NCBI GenBank assembly: GCA_027858735.1
Contig: JAQICC010000074.1
Span: 1 to 45,201, forward strand
Origin: Salinivirgaceae bacterium
Lineage (GTDB): Bacteria; Bacteroidota; Bacteroidia; Bacteroidales; SZUA-534
Direction of reading: 5' to 3'
Length of the DNA stretch: 45,201 nucleotides
The position numbers and the translations under genes are program-made. Position 1 is the stretch's first letter. Each line of letters starts with the position of its first letter. Shown here in pieces: positions 36,183-45,046 of the stretch. The notes beneath the pieces are model-generated. The model had not been told where the DNA came from. It saw nothing but the letters and a program-made list of their open reading frames with translations, and searched no databases.

Positions 36183-37589
36183 CTAACAGTAACTCGATCC
36201 ATCCCAGCAATGCGTGCAGAGTTTTTCTTTAGGTAAACCTATAGCTTCAACTAAATCATCAAGTTTCTGAAATTTTAAGGAAGTAAGATCCAAAGTTTTG
36301 CGAATTTGTTCAATCATAGCTGCATATTTTTCAGTGCTACTATCTGAATATTCTTTCATATTAATATCTTCTTTTCCTTCAAGTTCATATACGGCTTTCA
36401 ATGTAGCTAAATCCATATTTGAACGCGAGCGGCTAAAGTTCAAATATTCGCATGGATAGGTAAGGGGTGGACACGCAATTCTCATATGCACCTCTTTTAT
36501 TCCTGCAGCATGAAGGTCTTGTACATTATCTTTCAGCTGGGTTCCTCTTACAATTGAGTCATCAAGGAAAATTCCGCGGCCATCTTTAATAAGTGCTTTA
36601 TTGGGTATCAATTTCATTTTAGCCACCAAGTCTCTGGTTTTTTGGTTCTGTGGCATAAAACTTCGTGGCCATGTTGGCGTGTATTTCGAATAAGGGCGTT
36701 TTAACGGGACTCCTTTCTTATGGCTATAACCCATAGCATGTCCAACTCCAGAATCGGGAATTCCTGCAATAAAATCAGCTTCTAAATCGTCTCTTTCGGC
36801 AAGGGCTGCACCACATTTGTAACGGCATTCATCAACATTAATACCTTCATATACCGATGGCGGATAACCATAATACACCCATAAAAATGAACACACTTGC
36901 ATTTTGTCACCGGGTTTGCGCATTTGCTCATGACCTTCCGCAGTAATTCGAACAACTTCACCAGGGCCAACAAACTTGTCAGTTTCAAAACCCAAATTTG
37001 AAAAAGCACAAGTTTCAAAACTTGCAGCAAAAGCACCTTCTTTTTTACCAATAATTATAGGAGTCCTTCCAAGTTGATCCCTAGCAACAATCAGTTCGTC
37101 TGGCGTAATAATCAACATAGAACAAGAGCCTTTTACTCTATTATACACATTCTCAATTCCCGATAAAAAATCATCTCCTTCCGATATTAACATTGCCACC
37201 AATTCCGTTGGATTAATTCCACCTTGACTGGTTTCTGAAAAAGTTCGGTGTTGATCGGTAAAGTATGTTTCAAGCTCATCAATATTATTAATTTTTGCGA
37301 CTGTTGCTACCGCATAGCGTCTTAAATGGGAAGTTACTAAAATTGGTTGGGCTTCGTTATCACTTATTACTCCAATGCCGCTTGTAGCATCCCAGTTAGC
37401 AATATCGTTTTCAAATTTATTTCTAAAATAACCATCCTCAAGGCTATGAATGGCACGTTGAAAACCATCTTCTTTTGAAAAGAAAGCCAATCCGGCTCTT
37501 TTTGTTCCTAAATGTGAATGATAATCGGTACCGTAAAAAACATCGGCAACACAATCCTTTTTTGAGATACTACCAAAGAATCCGCTCAT
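36183..37589 (-). CDS. Amidophosphoribosyltransferase-like protein lacking the glutaminase nucleophile
   Basis: 468 residues with PurF architecture. The N-terminal Ntn-type domain (1-230) begins MSGFFG where PurF has MCGIFG, so the nucleophilic Cys is Ser. The usual HTRYAT and AHNGN segments are also gone (VISDNEAQP and TVAKINN stand there). The phosphoribosyltransferase half keeps IPDSGVGHAMGYS and the PRPP loop IFLDDSIVRGTQ (340-351). Cysteines at 233, 380, 458 and 461 match the four [4Fe-4S] ligand positions of Bacillus PurF. It may use free ammonia, another partner, or do something else. No other purine gene is near. The start is fixed because no Cys codon is found in frame upstream. Confidence 0.85.
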   Translation of the reverse strand: MSGFFGSISKKDCVADVFYGTDYHSHLGTKRAGLAFFSKEDGFQRAIHSLEDGYFRNKFENDIANWDATSGIGVISDNEAQPILVTSHLRRYAVATVAKINNIDELETYFTDQHRTFSETSQGGINPTELVAMLISEGDDFLSGIENVYNRVKGSCSMLIITPDELIVARDQLGRTPIIIGKKEGAFAASFETCAFSNLGFETDKFVGPGEVVRITAEGHEQMRKPGDKMQVCSFLWVYYGYPPSVYEGINVDECRYKCGAALAERDDLEADFIAGIPDSGVGHAMGYSHKKGVPLKRPYSKYTPTWPRSFMPQNQKTRDLVAKMKLIPNKALIKDGRGIFLDDSIVRGTQLKDNVQDLHAAGIKEVHMRIACPPLTYPCEYLNFSRSRSNMDLATLKAVYELEGKEDINMKEYSDSSTEKYAAMIEQIRKTLDLTSLKFQKLDDLVEAIGLPKEKLCTHCWDGSSYC

Positions 37590-37791
37590 TTTACTATAAG
37601 GTTTAATTTAAATTTTCGAAAATATAGATAGAAAATAAAAGAGTTAAAAACTTATTTTTAAAATGTTATTAACGGATAAATCAAAACTGTGCAATAATTA
37701 AAGAAATGAGCCAATTAATTATAATTCGTAAATATTAAAGTGCTAATGTTGTCAATTTATAAGTAATTGCTTAAAAATATATGACGATTAA

Positions 37792-37822
37792 TTTGATTAT
37801 TTAAAAATTACCACCATCTTTG
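37792..37822 (+). promoter_or_regulatory. Promoter of the aromatic amino acid operon
   Basis: TTTG (37792-37795), 19 bases of spacing, then CATCTTTG (37815-37822), one mismatch to TAnnTTTG. The expected start of transcription is about 37827-37830, some 15 bases before the leader-peptide ATG. The preceding stretch (37590-37791), divergent to the PurF-like gene, shows nothing else recognisable. Confidence 0.6.
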
Positions 37823-37842
37823 TTGTGTTAAAAATACAATTA

Positions 37843-37926
37843 ATGAAAAACTCAGTACGACATACTTCTTTTTATTATTTCTTTTTTTATTTCTGGAGAA
37901 GTAAAATGGGGTTTTTATGCATGTAA
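37843..37926 (+). CDS. Aromatic leader peptide of the pheA-aroA operon
   Basis: A 27-codon ORF (ATG 37843, TAA 37924-37926), too short for ordinary gene finding. Residues 10-18 are F-Y-Y-F-F-F-Y-F-W, nine aromatic codons in a row (37870-37896), and another Phe is at 24. Leader peptides rich in the regulated amino acid are the sensing part of ribosome-mediated attenuators (trpL and pheL in enterobacteria). The ORF lies between a promoter and a terminator, directly upstream of genes that make Phe and Tyr and the shared chorismate precursor. A chance run of this kind at exactly this place is very unlikely. No Shine-Dalgarno site is visible, which is normal in this phylum. Confidence 0.88.
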   Translation: MKNSVRHTSFYYFFFYFWRSKMGFLCM

Positions 37927-37956
37927 ATAATGTAAATATATAAAAATAAAAACCTC
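37846..37956 (+). promoter_or_regulatory. Competing 1:2 and 2:3 (antiterminator) helices of the attenuator
   Basis: Segment 1 is AAAAACTC (37846-37853), segment 2 is GGGGTTTTT (37908-37916) and segment 3 is AAAAACCTC (37948-37956). Segment 2 can pair with segment 1 over 8 bases or with segment 3 over 9 bases, each with one G-U pair. Pairing 2:3 uses the left arm of the terminator and so prevents termination. A ribosome stalled in the aromatic codons (37870-37893) covers segment 1 and leaves segment 2 free; one that reaches the stop at 37926 covers segment 2. Confidence 0.72.
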
Positions 37957-37976
37957 GCAATTAGCGGGGTTTTTTT
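37948..37976 (+). terminator. Attenuator terminator 12 bp before pheA
   Basis: The stem AAAAACCTCGC (37948-37958) / GCGGGGTTTTT (37964-37974) has one G-U pair, loop AATTA and a T-run to 37976. No gene on this strand ends nearby except the 27-codon leader, so its purpose must be to control the downstream pheA operon rather than to end an upstream unit. Confidence 0.85.
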
Positions 37977-37988
37977 ATTAATATGTAA

Positions 37989-38870
37989 ATGGCAGAAAGC
38001 GAATCAACACAAGCGCAAAAAATAAAAGTTGCTATCCAAGGTGGAGCAGGAGCTTTTCATGAAATAGCAGCACGTAACTATTTTGCTGAAGACATTGATG
38101 TAGTGCCGTGTGAGACTTTTGAGAATATTACCACTCTAATTGCCAATAAAGAGATTGATTTTGGTATAATGGCCATTGAAAATACTGTGGCAGGCAGTTT
38201 GATACCTAATTATGTACTATTGAAAGAATCGGTAGTGAAAATAATTGGTGAGGAATATTTACGCATAAAGCAGAATTTAATAGCCTTATCGGGCCAAAAA
38301 ATTGAGGATTTAACCGAAGTGCACTCGCATTATATGGCTATAGCTCAATCGCGTAAGTTTTTTAAAAACTATCCCGATATTAAATTGGTTGAATCAGTTG
38401 ATACAGCTTTAAGTGCACAAAAAATTCAAGAAAAAAAGCTGGTAGGAAAAGGAGCTATTGCCAGCGATTTAGCAGCTGAAATGTATGGTCTTGAAATTCT
38501 AGCTCCGGGTATTGAAACCAACAAAAGAAATTATACGAGGTTTTTAATACTTACACACCAAGAAAATAACAACAATAATACACAAGATATTAGTAAAGCT
38601 TCTATTTGTTTTAGTTTACCTAATTATCAAGGGCGATTGTCGCAAGTTTTAAGTGTATTAGCATTTTATGATTTAGATTTAACTAAAATACAATCGATGC
38701 CGATAGTTGGAAAGGAATTTCAATATTTCTTTTATGTTGATTTGGCCTTTGATAAATACGAAAAATACACTCAGGGATTAACCGCTATAAAACCATTAGT
38801 AGTTGATTTAAAAATACTAGGAGAATATAAGTACAGTATTGAAACTTTAGAAAACATTCATCATCAGTAA
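37989..38870 (+). CDS. pheA: Prephenate dehydratase
   Basis: 293 residues. The PDT catalytic domain (about 11-190) has IQGGAGAFHEIAA, ENTVAGSLIPNY and the T183-R-F motif NYTRFLIL. The ACT regulatory domain follows (205-285). The Phe-binding motifs of the ACT domain differ from the classical ones: GALV is GRLS and ESRP is QSMP (235-238). It converts prephenate to phenylpyruvate for Phe synthesis. There is no fused chorismate mutase; that activity is in the fusion gene three places downstream. It is the first structural gene of the attenuator-controlled operon, and the next ATG follows 1 base after its stop. Confidence 0.94.
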   Translation: MAESESTQAQKIKVAIQGGAGAFHEIAARNYFAEDIDVVPCETFENITTLIANKEIDFGIMAIENTVAGSLIPNYVLLKESVVKIIGEEYLRIKQNLIALSGQKIEDLTEVHSHYMAIAQSRKFFKNYPDIKLVESVDTALSAQKIQEKKLVGKGAIASDLAAEMYGLEILAPGIETNKRNYTRFLILTHQENNNNNTQDISKASICFSLPNYQGRLSQVLSVLAFYDLDLTKIQSMPIVGKEFQYFFYVDLAFDKYEKYTQGLTAIKPLVVDLKILGEYKYSIETLENIHHQ

Positions 38871-38871
38871 T

Positions 38872-40038
38872 ATGATACAACCAGCAGACAGAACCCAATT
38901 GGTTCAAGAGTATTATTTTTCTCAAAAGCTTAAAGAGATCGCCCAAATGAATAAGGAGGGTAAGAATGTCATAAATCTTGGCATTGGTAATCCTGATATG
39001 CTTCCACCAAAACCAGCTTTAGACGCATTTATTTCTGGTATTGAATGCCCGCTTAATCATGGTTATCCAAGCTATAATGGATTACCAGAATTGCGACTAG
39101 CTTTTGCAGAATGGTATAATACTTTCTATCAGGTAAATTTGGATAGTAATACCGAAATACTTCCTCTGATTGGTTCAAAGGAGGGTATTATGCATATTTC
39201 AATGGCCTTTTTAAATCCGGGAGATCAGGTTTTAATTTCAAATCCAGGATATCCTACATACAGGGCTGTTTCACTTATTGTGGGAGCTGAAGTTATAGAT
39301 TATGACTTAAAATCGGAGAACAATTGGTATCCGGATTTTGAGGCCCTTGAAAAACTTGATTTAACGAAGGTCAAATTAATGTGGGTGAATTACCCCCATA
39401 TGCCTACAGGTCAGCCTGCTTCATTGGAGTTATTCCAGCAGTTGATTGAATTTGGGAAAAAACATAACATATTAATTTGCAACGATAATCCATATAGTTT
39501 TATCTTAAATGATAATCCAATAAGCATATTGAGCATTCCGGGTGCAAATGACATTGCACTTGAATTAAACTCACTTAGCAAGTCGCACAATATGGCTGGA
39601 TTTAGAGTGGGTATGCTTGCGGGTAAAGCCGAGTATATTAATTATGTGCTTAAAATAAAAAGCAATGTTGATACGGGTATGTATAAACCTTTACAAATGG
39701 CTGCAACTATAGCTTTAGGTGAGAAAAAAGATTGGTATACTACCATTAACAAAGAATATATAAAGCGACGGGCATTGGTTTGGAGCTTATTCGATATGCT
39801 TGGACTAGAATATGATAAAAAGCAAACCGGAATGTTTGTTTGGGCAAAAATTCCGAAGGCGTACGATCATACTTTTGAATTTTGTGACTATATATTGTAC
39901 GAAGCAAACGTATTTATTACCCCAGGATCCATTTTTGGATCGAATGGTGCTAAGTACGCGAGGATTTCACTTTGTAGTTCAATTGAAACTTTAAAAAATG
40001 CTATTGAACGCATTGATAATCTTTCATTTAATAGATAG
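38872..40038 (+). CDS. PLP-dependent aminotransferase class I/II (probable aromatic aminotransferase)
   Basis: 388 residues of fold type I. Signs are NLGIGNPDMLPPKPA, GYPSYNGLPELRLAFAEWY, SNPGYPTY, the PLP contact D205 (CNDNPYSF) and the Schiff-base lysine K237 in LNSLSKSHNMAGFRVGM. The position between pheA and tyrA implies transamination of phenylpyruvate and 4-hydroxyphenylpyruvate to Phe and Tyr. Alternatives from sequence alone include LL-diaminopimelate or alanine aminotransferase-like enzymes. Confidence 0.9.
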   Translation: MIQPADRTQLVQEYYFSQKLKEIAQMNKEGKNVINLGIGNPDMLPPKPALDAFISGIECPLNHGYPSYNGLPELRLAFAEWYNTFYQVNLDSNTEILPLIGSKEGIMHISMAFLNPGDQVLISNPGYPTYRAVSLIVGAEVIDYDLKSENNWYPDFEALEKLDLTKVKLMWVNYPHMPTGQPASLELFQQLIEFGKKHNILICNDNPYSFILNDNPISILSIPGANDIALELNSLSKSHNMAGFRVGMLAGKAEYINYVLKIKSNVDTGMYKPLQMAATIALGEKKDWYTTINKEYIKRRALVWSLFDMLGLEYDKKQTGMFVWAKIPKAYDHTFEFCDYILYEANVFITPGSIFGSNGAKYARISLCSSIETLKNAIERIDNLSFNR

Positions 40039-40056
40039 AAAAATATATTACTAATA

Positions 40057-40899
40057 ATGGTACTTACAATTATTGGACTAGGATTAATGGGTGGCTCTGC
40101 TGCCATTGATTTACGCAAAAGAGGTTTTGCCGATAAAATAATTGGTGTTGATAAAGACCAAATAAACGCCAATGCAGCCCACCATATTGGGTTTGTTGAT
40201 GAAATTACTGATTTGGAATCGGCTGTAAAACAAGCCGATATGGTTATTTTGGCTATTCCGGTTGATGCCACTGTTAATCTTTTACCCAAAGTGCTTGATT
40301 TAGTTGATAAGCAGATTGTTACCGACATGTGTTCAACCAAATCAACGTTACTTGAGCGTGTAAAATATCATAGTAAGCGAAAGCAGTACGTTGCTGGTCA
40401 CCCAATGGCAGGTACCGAATTTTCGGGCCCCTGGGCAGCAGTTTCTGGTATGTTCGACAGTAAGGCAACTATTTTATGCGATACCGAAGACAGTGATATT
40501 AGGGCTGTTGCAGCAGTAAAACGCATGTATGAATTGTTAAATATGCGTGTTATATATATGAATAGCATTAATCATGATGTGCATGCAGCCTATATTTCAC
40601 ACATTTCTCATATAAGTTCATTTGCATTAGCTTTAACGGTGCTTGAGAAAGAAAAAAATGAGAAACACATATTTGATCTTGCTAGCGGAGGATTCGATAG
40701 CACAGTGCGTTTAGCAAAGAGTTCGGCCGATATGTGGACACCTATTTTTAATCAGAACAAAGAGAACGTTACCACTGTTTTAGATACTTATATTAATAAA
40801 TTACAGCAGTTTCGTGATTATATAGAAAACGATGAAAACGAAAAGGTTCATAAATTAATAACGGAATCAAATAAAATAAAACGTGTATTATTTAAATAA
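40057..40899 (+). CDS. tyrA: Prephenate dehydrogenase
   Basis: 280 residues. The N-terminal Rossmann motif is IIGLGLMGGSAAID (5-18). The prephenate-binding signature GHPMAGTEFSGP holds the catalytic His, and a helical C-terminal dimerisation half contains SHISHISSFALAL and LASGGFDSTVRLA. It oxidises prephenate to 4-hydroxyphenylpyruvate in Tyr synthesis. No ACT domain is attached, so feedback by Tyr may be weak, which leaves control to the leader. Confidence 0.94.
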   Translation: MVLTIIGLGLMGGSAAIDLRKRGFADKIIGVDKDQINANAAHHIGFVDEITDLESAVKQADMVILAIPVDATVNLLPKVLDLVDKQIVTDMCSTKSTLLERVKYHSKRKQYVAGHPMAGTEFSGPWAAVSGMFDSKATILCDTEDSDIRAVAAVKRMYELLNMRVIYMNSINHDVHAAYISHISHISSFALALTVLEKEKNEKHIFDLASGGFDSTVRLAKSSADMWTPIFNQNKENVTTVLDTYINKLQQFRDYIENDENEKVHKLITESNKIKRVLFK

Positions 40900-40925
40900 G
40901 CAAATAAATTTAACAGCATATAATT

Positions 40926-42014
40926 ATGAATGCAATATTAAAACATCCTTTTGATGGTTGGGGTTTTGAACACGATCTAAGACCGCTAGTTATAGCAGGT
41001 CCTTGTAGCGCCGAATCGGAAGAGCAGGTATTGGATACTGCCAGACAATTAAAAGATCAGGGAATTGAGATTTTTAGGGCTGGAATTTGGAAACCTCGCA
41101 CGCGCCCAAATTCCTTTGAAGGTGTTGGTAGTATTGGCTTAGAATGGATGCGTTTGGTGCAGCAAGAAGTTGGAATGAAGGTTTCTACTGAAGTTGCAAA
41201 TGTTAAGCATGTTTACGAAGCCTTAAGAATGGGTGTTGATATAATTTGGATAGGTGCTCGTACATCTGCCAATCCTTTTGCCATGCAAGAAATTGCTGAT
41301 GCCTTAAAGGGTGTAGATATTCCGGTATTTGTGAAAAATCCGGTCAATCCTGACGTTGACCTTTGGATGGGAGCAATAGAGCGTATTCAAGGTGCTGGTA
41401 TTACGAAAGTAGGAGCAATTCATCGTGGATTCTCTACCTTCGATAAAACAAGGTACCGTAACATTCCACAATGGCAATTACCCATTGAGCTTCGTAGAAA
41501 AATGCCGGGATTACCAATGATCGTTGATCCAAGTCATATTGGAGGCCGCCGGGATATTCTTGAAGAAATTGCACAAAAAGCACTAGATTTAAACTACGAC
41601 GGTTTAATTATTGAAACACATTGCAATCCTGATAAAGCATGGAGCGATGCAAGTCAACAAATTACTCCTGCGACATTAAAAACCTTACTTGGAAATTTAG
41701 TGATACGTCACCGTGAAATTGAAGCTAATGTAAATTTAGATTCGCTTGAAGATTTACGACTTCAGATTGATACCTTTGATAATGAATTACTTGCCATTCT
41801 TGAAAAACGCATGCAAGTTGCTGAAAAAATTGGGGAGTATAAAAAAACGAACAATATTACCATTCTTCAACCCGATCGATGGCAGGAGATTTTAGATAAA
41901 ACATTGGAAAAGGGTAAAAATGTTGATTTAAGTGATGATTTTATTGCACAAATATTTAAATCGATTCACCAAGAATCAATTAATAAGCAGGAAAAAGTAA
42001 TGAACGAAGACTAA
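40926..42014 (+). CDS. Bifunctional DAHP synthase-chorismate mutase
   Basis: 362 residues. The DAHP synthase (family I-beta, residues about 1-262) has VIAGPCSAESEEQ, GIWKPRTRPNSFEG, WIGARTSANPFAMQE, VKNPVNPD, GAIHRGFS and IVDPSHIGGRRD. A chorismate mutase of the AroQ helical type (about 270-350) follows: LEDLRLQIDTFDNELLAILEKRMQVAEKIGEYK. One protein thus catalyses both the first step of the shikimate pathway and the branch to prephenate, which pheA and tyrA upstream then use. Such fusions often give feedback control of DAHP synthase by prephenate or chorismate. Confidence 0.95.
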   Translation: MNAILKHPFDGWGFEHDLRPLVIAGPCSAESEEQVLDTARQLKDQGIEIFRAGIWKPRTRPNSFEGVGSIGLEWMRLVQQEVGMKVSTEVANVKHVYEALRMGVDIIWIGARTSANPFAMQEIADALKGVDIPVFVKNPVNPDVDLWMGAIERIQGAGITKVGAIHRGFSTFDKTRYRNIPQWQLPIELRRKMPGLPMIVDPSHIGGRRDILEEIAQKALDLNYDGLIIETHCNPDKAWSDASQQITPATLKTLLGNLVIRHREIEANVNLDSLEDLRLQIDTFDNELLAILEKRMQVAEKIGEYKKTNNITILQPDRWQEILDKTLEKGKNVDLSDDFIAQIFKSIHQESINKQEKVMNED

Positions 42015-42026
42015 ATTCCTATTCAA

Positions 42027-42066
42027 ACCTGAGAGGTTCAATATTACGATATTAAACCTCTCAGGT
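42027..42066. repeat. Palindromic element inside the aromatic operon
   Basis: A perfect 12-bp stem ACCTGAGAGGTT (42027-42038) / AACCTCTCAGGT (42055-42066), extended inside by AATAT/ATATT after one mismatch. No T-run follows. It sits in the only gap over 35 bases of the operon, between the DAHP synthase fusion gene and aroB. An RNA-processing site or a REP-like repeat is more likely than a terminator. Confidence 0.6.
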
Positions 42067-42095
42067 CTTGCTATTTCGACCAAGCAAATATTAAA

Positions 42096-43115
42096 ATGGA
42101 AAAATTAGAAATTCAAGGCTCGCTATCGAATTCAACCTTACTTATAGGGGAAAGCTTTCATAATTACAAGCTCTACCTACCCAATAAACAAGTTATTGTT
42201 TTAATGGATGATAAGGTTCGCGGGCTTTATGGTAAATATTTTGAAGATTATCCAATTATTGAAATTGGACAAACTGAAAAAAATAAAACGCTAAGCACCA
42301 TTGAAAATATAATGGGGCAATTGCTTGATTTAAATGCTGATAGAAGCACGTTTCTTTTAGCCGTTGGTGGTGGTATCATTTGCGATATTGGCGGTTTCGC
42401 AGCTTCAATTTATTTGCGCGGTATTGAGTTTGGGTTTATTTCAACCACATTGCTATCACAGGTTGACGCTAGTGTAGGAGGCAAGAATGGAGTAAATTTC
42501 AAAGGCTTTAAAAACATGGTTGGAGTATTTAACCAACCCAGCTTTGTTTTGTGCGATCAAGAAATGTTAAAAACCCTAAGTACTGAAGATTTAAACTGTG
42601 GTTTTGCTGAAATTGTTAAACACACTCTTATTTCAGATGCTGAAATGTTTGAAAAACTTGAAAATAATATTGAGAAAGCATTGAATATTGAAACCGATTT
42701 TATTGAAGCTTTGGTCGCAAATTCTGTGAGAATTAAAGCCGGAATTGTAAACAAAGATGAAAAAGAAAAAGGAGAACGTCGAAAACTGAATCTGGGCCAC
42801 ACCTACGGACATGCAGTTGAGAAGGTTTTAGGTGTAGCGCATGGAAATGCAGTAAGTATTGGCTTAGCTATTTCAGCAAAGCTTTCGCTAAATAGAGGAA
42901 CCATTACTGCGAATGATTACCAGAGAGTAGTTAATTTGCTTAAAGCACTGAATTTACCAATAATGGTAACTGAAAAACACGAAGAGATACTTGAAGCTTT
43001 GTTGATGGATAAAAAACGCGAAGGCAATGAAATACATTTTGTTCTGATGCATGGGATAGGAGACGTTAGCCTGGAGTTAATATCTATTGAAGAACTAAAG
43101 AAAATTGAACTGTAA
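42096..43115 (+). CDS. aroB: 3-dehydroquinate synthase
   Basis: 339 residues. NAD-binding LLAVGGGIICDIGGFAASIYLRGI, then STTLLSQVDASVGGKNGVNF, metal ligands in GFAEIVKHTLI (Glu, His) and NLGHTYGHAVE (His), which are standard for AroB. It closes DAHP to 3-dehydroquinate. The gene lies 81 bases after the fusion gene, behind a palindromic element. Confidence 0.96.
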   Translation: MEKLEIQGSLSNSTLLIGESFHNYKLYLPNKQVIVLMDDKVRGLYGKYFEDYPIIEIGQTEKNKTLSTIENIMGQLLDLNADRSTFLLAVGGGIICDIGGFAASIYLRGIEFGFISTTLLSQVDASVGGKNGVNFKGFKNMVGVFNQPSFVLCDQEMLKTLSTEDLNCGFAEIVKHTLISDAEMFEKLENNIEKALNIETDFIEALVANSVRIKAGIVNKDEKEKGERRKLNLGHTYGHAVEKVLGVAHGNAVSIGLAISAKLSLNRGTITANDYQRVVNLLKALNLPIMVTEKHEEILEALLMDKKREGNEIHFVLMHGIGDVSLELISIEELKKIEL

Positions 43116-43135
43116 CCTTAATTAAACGCATTACA

Positions 43136-43765
43136 ATGCTTTGTAGATCGATAGCGGTTGAAGGGTTTGAAAAAGTAAAAGAGCTTCTTAATGGGGCTGA
43201 AATGGCAGAAATACGCATTGAAAAGACCGGTCTTTCTGTCGAGGAAGTTAAAATGCTTTTTCAAAGTCATAATAATTTGATTGCCACATGTCGTGTTGAA
43301 AATAATACTGATGCCGAAAGGACACAGCTATTATCAGCTGCAATTGAAGGCGGAGCAAAGTGGATTGATCTTGAACTGGAATCAGAGAACAGTTTTACAG
43401 AACCTTTAATTGAAAAAGCAAAAATTCATGGGTGCACTGTTATTATCTCGTACCACAATTATGAAGAGACTCCTGATTTAAGAGAGTTAACAGCGATTAT
43501 TGAAAAATGTATATCAAAAGGTGCTGAGCTTGTAAAACTGGCAACTAGGGTCAATAAGCAAACCGACATTACAAATCTATTGTCTCTATATTCCTATAAT
43601 TACCCTATGTTGGCCTTAGGAATGGGTAAACTGGGTAACATATCGCGCGTTGCAGCTTTAAAATTGGGAGCTCCGTTTACCTTTGTAAGTTGCGATTCGG
43701 AAGAAGTTACTGCTCCAGGCCAAATTACCGAAAGCGAAATGAATACAATTTTAAATATATTATAA
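43136..43765 (+). CDS. aroD: Type I 3-dehydroquinate dehydratase
   Basis: 209 residues, a (beta/alpha)8 barrel of class I. AEIRIEKTG, the catalytic His in VIISYHNYEETP, the Schiff-base Lys in GAELVKLATRVN and LALGMGKLGNISRVAALKLGAPFTF are present. It converts 3-dehydroquinate to 3-dehydroshikimate. Shikimate dehydrogenase (aroE), shikimate kinase (aroK) and chorismate synthase (aroC) are not in the window. Confidence 0.95.
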   Translation: MLCRSIAVEGFEKVKELLNGAEMAEIRIEKTGLSVEEVKMLFQSHNNLIATCRVENNTDAERTQLLSAAIEGGAKWIDLELESENSFTEPLIEKAKIHGCTVIISYHNYEETPDLRELTAIIEKCISKGAELVKLATRVNKQTDITNLLSLYSYNYPMLALGMGKLGNISRVAALKLGAPFTFVSCDSEEVTAPGQITESEMNTILNIL

Positions 43766-43795
43766 TCAGATATATAAAACAATTTATTTAAACCC

Positions 43796-45046
43796 ATGAT
43801 TAAAGTAATACATCCATCAAAAATTAAAGGAGAAGTTAAGGCTCCAGCGTCAAAAAGTTTTATGCAACGTGCCATTGCTTTATCGGTATTGGCTGATGGT
43901 GAGACCATTATTGAAAATCCATCACGCTGTGACGATGCCTTGGCAGGTTTGAATATAGCTTCGAGTTTTGGATGTAAGGTGTATGATAATGGTGAGTTTA
44001 TTTCTGTTATTCCAAATAAAGAGGTTAAGCCAACAAAGTTGCTATGCGGTGAATCAGGTCTGGCAATCCGTTTGTTTGCACCAATTGTGAGTCTTTATTC
44101 CCATCAGGTTGAATTGCAAGCAGAAGGTTCTTTGTTAAAGCGACCTGCTGATTTTATGACAAGTACATTGAATCAATTAGGTGTTGGTACTGAAACAAAC
44201 GACGGTTTTCCTCCTTTGAAAATTCAAGGCCCCTTGAAAACAGGCTCGGCTGAACTTGATGGTAGTTTAAGCTCGCAATTTTTATCGGGCTTATTAATTG
44301 CTTTACCTAAAGCTCAAGGTAATAGTACTTTAAAGGTGAATAACCTTATGAGTATTCCTTATATTGATATGACTTTAAAAGCAATTGAATCATTTGGTGG
44401 CAAAATTGAACATTCAGATTATAAAGTATTTACCATACAAGGTAGCCAGAATTACAATGCGGGTACATATTTTATTGAAGGTGATTGGAGCGGAGCTGCC
44501 GGGTTACTTGTTGCAGGAGCAATTGGTGGCAATATTATGGTTACAAAGCTTACATCAACGTCAACTCAAGCCGATATGGCTGTTATGAAAGCTTTGCGCG
44601 ATGCTGGTGCTGAAATTGAAATTGATGATGATACCATAATAATTAAGCGACCAAAACAGCTACAAGCTTTTGAATTTGATGCTTTGCATTGCCCAGACCT
44701 GTTTCCAGTACTTACAGCTTTAGCGGCAAATTGCGAGGGAACAACAAGAATAAGTGGCGTTCATAGATTATTACATAAAGAAAGCAATAGAGGAGAAGCC
44801 TTAAAGAATGAGTTTAATAAAATAGGGGTATCTATTGAATTTGAGAATGATATAATGTTAATAAAAGGAGGAAACATTCAAGGTGGTGATGTTTTTGCTC
44901 ACAACGATCATAGAATTGCAATGGCTTTAACCTTGGCAGCCTTTAATGCAGCAGGGGCTATTAAAATTTCAGGGACTGAATGTGTAAATAAAACATACCC
45001 TGAGTTTTTTGAAGACATGAAAATGTTAGGTGTAAAAGTAGAGTAA
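43796..45046 (+). CDS. aroA: 5-enolpyruvylshikimate-3-phosphate synthase
   Basis: 416 residues. EPSPS pattern: KAPASKSFMQRAIALSVLADG at the start (substrate-binding Lys and Ser), LLCGESGLAIRLFAP in place of the usual GNAGTAMR loop, GSLSSQFLSGLLIALP, EGDWSGAAGLLVAGAI, LLHKESNRGEAL and NDHRIAMALTLAAF. It joins PEP and shikimate-3-phosphate. The variation in the GNAGT loop is similar to that in class II-like enzymes of this phylum and may affect glyphosate sensitivity, which the sequence alone does not settle. It is the last gene of the operon seen here. Confidence 0.95.
   Translation: MIKVIHPSKIKGEVKAPASKSFMQRAIALSVLADGETIIENPSRCDDALAGLNIASSFGCKVYDNGEFISVIPNKEVKPTKLLCGESGLAIRLFAPIVSLYSHQVELQAEGSLLKRPADFMTSTLNQLGVGTETNDGFPPLKIQGPLKTGSAELDGSLSSQFLSGLLIALPKAQGNSTLKVNNLMSIPYIDMTLKAIESFGGKIEHSDYKVFTIQGSQNYNAGTYFIEGDWSGAAGLLVAGAIGGNIMVTKLTSTSTQADMAVMKALRDAGAEIEIDDDTIIIKRPKQLQAFEFDALHCPDLFPVLTALAANCEGTTRISGVHRLLHKESNRGEALKNEFNKIGVSIEFENDIMLIKGGNIQGGDVFAHNDHRIAMALTLAAFNAAGAIKISGTECVNKTYPEFFEDMKMLGVKVE

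Follow-up and report, generated by a model that had tools for sequence, protein, structure and literature searches.

A putative leader-peptide attenuator upstream of pheA in Bacteroidia with conserved phenylalanine and tyrosine control codons

Attenuation of pheA and of the trp, his, ilv and thr operons is textbook knowledge. The E. coli pheA leader, pheL, reads Phe only, and a mixture of Phe and Tyr codons is found in pheM, the leader of pheST. A comparative paper by Lopatovskaya et al. from 2010 (cited in PMC4833913) may list attenuators from Bacteroidetes as well. Attenuation of ilvGMEDA and thr is listed in PMC1183508. Within Bacteroidota, the transcriptome of F. psychrophilum gave strong clues to leader-peptide attenuation ahead of amino acid operons, and the main text of the same study describes conserved structured 5′ elements, without Rfam hits, that precede pheA and hisG in Flavobacteriaceae (PMC9723704). 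A map of the B. thetaiotaomicron transcriptome mentions leader-like small ORFs in general (PMC7366714).

The window analysed here, a stretch of 45,201 nt from a Salinivirgaceae bacterium, carries a seven-gene operon running from pheA through tyrA to aroA, preceded by a short ORF, a predicted promoter and an intrinsic terminator (Table 1). The order of the operon genes is kept in genomes G004, G005, G007 and G001. Since aroE, aroK and aroC are not among the seven genes, the operon does not hold a complete shikimate set, and its initial annotation as a complete shikimate/Phe/Tyr operon was overstated. The 27-codon ORF with the run FYYFFFYFW, the promoter and the terminator, all proposed in that annotation, were each found where it had placed them. 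The nine aromatic codons read, in order, TTT TAT TAT TTC TTT TTT TAT TTC TGG. The predicted promoter differs at one position from TTG / TAnnTTTG, the Bacteroidota consensus, and has 19 nt between its two elements. The terminator hairpin has 11 bp, including 5 GC pairs, with a loop of 5 and a T7 tail, and is the single site found in 37590–38100, a span in which shuffled sequences gave 0.1. Its T run ends 12 nt before the start of pheA. Because the upstream gene is divergent (36183–37589, minus strand), the only genes that the terminator can affect are pheA and those that follow it, as had been claimed.

Table 1. Features of the pheA leader region and of the operon behind it (positions in the window)
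Feature	Position	Strand	Details
Bacteroidota-type promoter (predicted)	37792..37822	+	-33 TTTG 37792-37795; 19-nt spacer; -7 CATCTTTG 37815-37822
Leader ORF, 27 codons + TAA	37843..37926	+	ATG 37843; TAA 37924-37926; peptide MKNSVRHTSFYYFFFYFWRSKMGFLCM
Control codons FYYFFFYFW (5 Phe, 3 Tyr, 1 Trp)	37870..37896	+	residues 10-18
Region 2, antiterminator 5′ arm GGGGTTTTTAT	37908..37918	+	overlaps leader ORF 3′ end
Region 3	37946..37956	+	common to antiterminator (3′ arm) and terminator (5′ arm)
Intrinsic terminator	37948..37976	+	stem 37948-37958 / 37964-37974; T run 37970-37976
pheA, prephenate dehydratase, first gene of the operon	37989..38870	+	Pfam PDT, E=1e-52, 179 bits
Remaining operon: aminotransferase, prephenate dehydrogenase, DAHP synthase-chorismate mutase, aroB, aroD, aroA	38872..45046	+	

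Taken by itself, the aromatic run was rejected as evidence: in this AT-rich genome such runs are common in raw DNA, with 77 TTY/TAY six-codon runs against 109 for a reversed control pattern. An aromatic score of 9, that of the leader ORF in the window, was reached in 0 of 3000 shuffles of the region, and no second leader-plus-terminator was found at other six-codon aromatic runs among the first 30 matches listed. The rarity of the leader lies in its context and conservation and not in the aromatic run alone.

Conservation was assessed in 117 loci with prephenate dehydratase, drawn from relatives and from a class-wide set. A leader was scored as present where an ORF starting with ATG and reaching an aromatic score of 5 or more lay within 350 nt upstream of the dehydratase gene. 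Such an ORF was present at 93 of the 117 loci and in 36 of 46 families, counts in which the rows are not phylogenetically independent, compared with 0.4% of dinucleotide shuffles and 0/117 on the reverse strand. Downstream of 92 of 94 leaders there is a hairpin with a T run, compared with 0.9% in shuffles, and 57 of 94 have a Bacteroidota-type promoter within the 80 nt that precede the leader ATG (3% in shuffles). Among close relatives the aromatic run changes in length by one codon, in frame, and region 2 follows the run at a median distance of 10 nt (IQR 9–12). Named gut species carry the pheA leader too: Parabacteroides distasonis (peptide MNRFSFTYYFYYFYFSRVRAGVCM), Bacteroides finegoldii (MKSFTYAYYFFFYFYFSNKVEREFVCIK) and Phocaeicola massiliensis (MKALYNTYFFFFYYFYFSNKVKREFVCVR). 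The scan of named genomes by PDT yielded only two loci.

At 24 of the 117 loci no aromatic leader was found upstream of pheA. Bacteroidia lineages in which prephenate dehydratase occurs without it are family f56 (L053, L054, L056, L058, L059, L063, L099 and L101), as well as f105, f65, f44, f97, f68, f47, f83, f108 and part of f59 and f64. In the rest of the phylum (21 loci outside the class), a leader was detected in only four, L248, L256, L259 and L238, whose dehydratase N-terminus is of the Bacteroidia type (AIQG..SFH). This suggests either that operon and leader were transferred together or that these are mis-binned contigs. Two plasmid-labelled records also carry the pheA operon (L263, NZ_OY725761.1, and L264, NZ_OY725947.1, the latter with recQ); these "plasmids" look like pieces of chromosome.

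The region between the leader and pheA contains the parts of a switch. Region 2 can form 11 contiguous pairs with region 3. In computed folds, free region 2–3 RNA adopts the antiterminator (-11.9 kcal/mol) before region 4 is made, and the terminator forms when region 2 is masked (-14.3 kcal/mol). In the full-length RNA the terminator is computed to be more stable than the antiterminator, so that switching has to depend on how the RNA folds while it is being transcribed, as it does in trp attenuation in E. coli. A 1:2 protector stem, present in E. coli trp and not essential to the leader-peptide attenuator class, pairs weakly in the window (-7.7 kcal/mol). Compared over the loci, its pairing is no better than shuffled (p=0.28) and slightly better than cross-family (p=0.004), with no clear sign of conservation.

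The alternative helices covary. Among 81 leaders whose hairpin is simple, pairing of region 2 averaged -15.1 kcal/mol with the region 3 of the same leader, -9.8 with the arms of other families and -6.8 when shuffled (Wilcoxon 1e-14), and at least 7 contiguous region 2–3 pairs were found in 63% of loci, 26% of cross-family combinations and 5% of shuffled ones. The terminator core varies between families and region 2 varies in step, matching within each family, as in the region 2/region 3 cores AGCGGGA/TCCCGCT, GGTGGGT/GCTCACC, GAGCAGGA/TCCTGCTC and CGAGGCTT/AAGCCTCG. That the leader is a chance ORF in AT-rich intergenic DNA ahead of an ordinary terminator, a reading for which the abundance of aromatic runs in this genome could be cited, is refuted comparatively by its retention in 36 of 46 families, by its complete absence from the reverse strand and by the covarying antiterminator, and we assign this reading a negligible probability.

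Ribosome geometry fits the same scheme. With the leading edge set at 12–14 nt, an assumption taken from established ribosome footprints, a modelled ribosome stalled at any of the nine aromatic codons either stays clear of region 2 or just abuts it, and one placed at the stop codon covers 37906–37936, region 2 included. From this anatomy we infer that the leader is transcribed and translated and that ribosome stalling within it governs read-through of the terminator. In a shortage of tRNA-Phe or tRNA-Tyr, the ribosome would stall in the aromatic run and leave region 2 free to pair with region 3 before region 4 is made; no terminator would then form, and pheA to aroA would be transcribed. With the aromatic tRNAs charged, the ribosome would advance to the stop codon and mask region 2, region 3 would pair with region 4, and transcription would terminate.

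The same genome carries comparable arrangements ahead of other amino acid operons. A Trp leader (MIRNYKNIWWWRNDL, with IWWW) lies approximately 140–190 nt upstream of trpE and has a strong terminator behind it (G000:C101, L197), and trpE leaders with IWWW or WWW recur in relatives. Upstream of trpE in G004 (L198), the run is interrupted (IWRWH) and two terminators stand in tandem. A His leader (MIITVHHHHHHLNQAEI, with HHHHHH) and terminator lie approximately 145–200 nt upstream of hisG (G000:C89, L228); His-run leaders precede hisG in most relatives checked, and none was found in G001 or G023. The trpE and hisG leaders in this genome and its relatives suggest that leader-peptide attenuation is a general habit of the lineage.

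Together with the conserved parts of the pheA switch, they make classic attenuation the best explanation of the locus. Three features expected of a leader-peptide attenuator are present: a conserved short ORF, putatively translated, in which codons for the end products cluster; an intrinsic terminator lying behind the leader and ahead of the first gene; and a mutually exclusive antiterminator, placed so that a stall would free it and a ribosome that has reached the stop codon would mask it. The layout of ribosome-mediated attenuation recognized in the initial annotation is thus strongly supported, with leader, antiterminator and terminator all conserved. Judged from sequence comparison, the element is real, conserved and almost certainly a classic attenuator; very probably, it acts at the level of transcription by sensing charged tRNA-Phe and tRNA-Tyr through the ribosome, with a possible minor input from Trp.

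What is conserved across families is the codons and the pairing, and there is no fixed RNA or peptide sequence. This bears on a rival proposal, under which either the terminated transcript (approximately 150 nt) would work in trans as a small RNA or the encoded peptide would do so. Sinorhizobium trpL offers a precedent (PMC7298713) and such action would be compatible with attenuation, but the pattern of conservation speaks against it here, and we regard it as very unlikely.

Under attenuation, the composition of the run indicates which amino acids would be read. Over the 94 leaders, the run residues are 51% Phe, 42% Tyr and 3% Trp, and both Phe and Tyr occur in 91 of the 94 runs, the other three containing Phe only. 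One alternative is a Phe-only attenuator like E. coli pheL, in which the Tyr and Trp codons would be neutral drift from TTY. Its appeal is that pheA is the first gene, that Phe is the commonest residue of the run, that F-only leaders exist and that TTY becomes TAY by one base change. However, the residues besides F and Y that lie one base change away from TTY/TAY (L, S, C, I, V, N, H and D) make up approximately 1% of run residues, and their near absence makes drift an unlikely source of the Tyr codons. A Phe-only attenuator is therefore improbable, and the data support Phe plus Tyr as the conserved signal.

The position of Trp is different. The initial annotation proposed that the leader senses Phe, Tyr and Trp; the mixture of Phe and Tyr stands, whereas conserved codons for all three aromatic amino acids were not found among the 94 leaders, as Trp occurs in just 22 of them and in 10 of 37 families. 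Trp is nonetheless enriched in the run (3.0% of residues versus 0.8% outside it; Fisher p=0.0003), the Trp codon of the window lies inside the stalling range, and the DAHP synthase and aroB/aroD/aroA of the operon also feed Trp synthesis, so that a real Trp response from a lone codon deserves consideration. Against it, the position is Cys (TGT) in G009 (L005) while TGG is present in G005 and G007 of the same genus, it is Asn in L007, and G001 lacks Trp although its operon is unchanged. The presence of Trp does not clearly track that of aroB, aroD and aroA (p=0.34 strict, 0.05 lenient), and the trp operon has a leader of its own. Given that Trp is sporadic and lost even in the nearest genus, three-way sensing is unproven; Trp sensing by the leader is possible. 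We tentatively consider, as the less likely case, an OR-gate in which a shortage of any of the three aromatic tRNAs would relieve termination and lineages would tune their sensitivity to Trp through gain or loss of a single TGG codon. If so, a single leader would set the flux into the shared aromatic pathway.

The distribution of the Phe/Tyr leader points to control of Phe and Tyr synthesis by ribosome stalling across a large part of the class Bacteroidia, in gut Bacteroides among others. Such control would imply that ribosome and RNA polymerase are closely coupled in the phylum, and we know of no direct test of this coupling in Bacteroidota. The leader may also serve as a ready natural read-out of Phe/Tyr starvation in genetically tractable gut bacteria.

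Among known systems, no Rfam family covers the leader at threshold: the match to RF01859 (Phe_leader) scored 33.9 bits (E=0.00066), below the gathering threshold of 55 bits. The structured element of Flavobacteriaceae belongs to the same phylum and precedes the same gene, so the initial claim that Bacteroidota offer no example needs qualifying; the main text of that report gives no peptide, Phe/Tyr mix, antiterminator or spread beyond Flavobacteriaceae (PMC9723704). No description of a mixed Phe/Tyr pheA leader, or of its class-wide spread, was found in the open-licence papers searched. Leaders that read more than one amino acid are represented in E. coli by ilvGMEDA, thr and pheM, with targets that differ from the one here. 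Among the closest counterparts is E. coli pheL, which shares the target gene, a short Phe-rich leader, a terminator before pheA and, very probably, the mechanism. In contrast to pheL, the leader described here combines Phe with Tyr and sometimes Trp, in another operon and another phylum. The mechanism is thus familiar, while the reading of two amino acids and its breadth across most of the class Bacteroidia are largely undescribed, and the conserved novelty lies in the joint control by Phe and Tyr rather than in three-way sensing.
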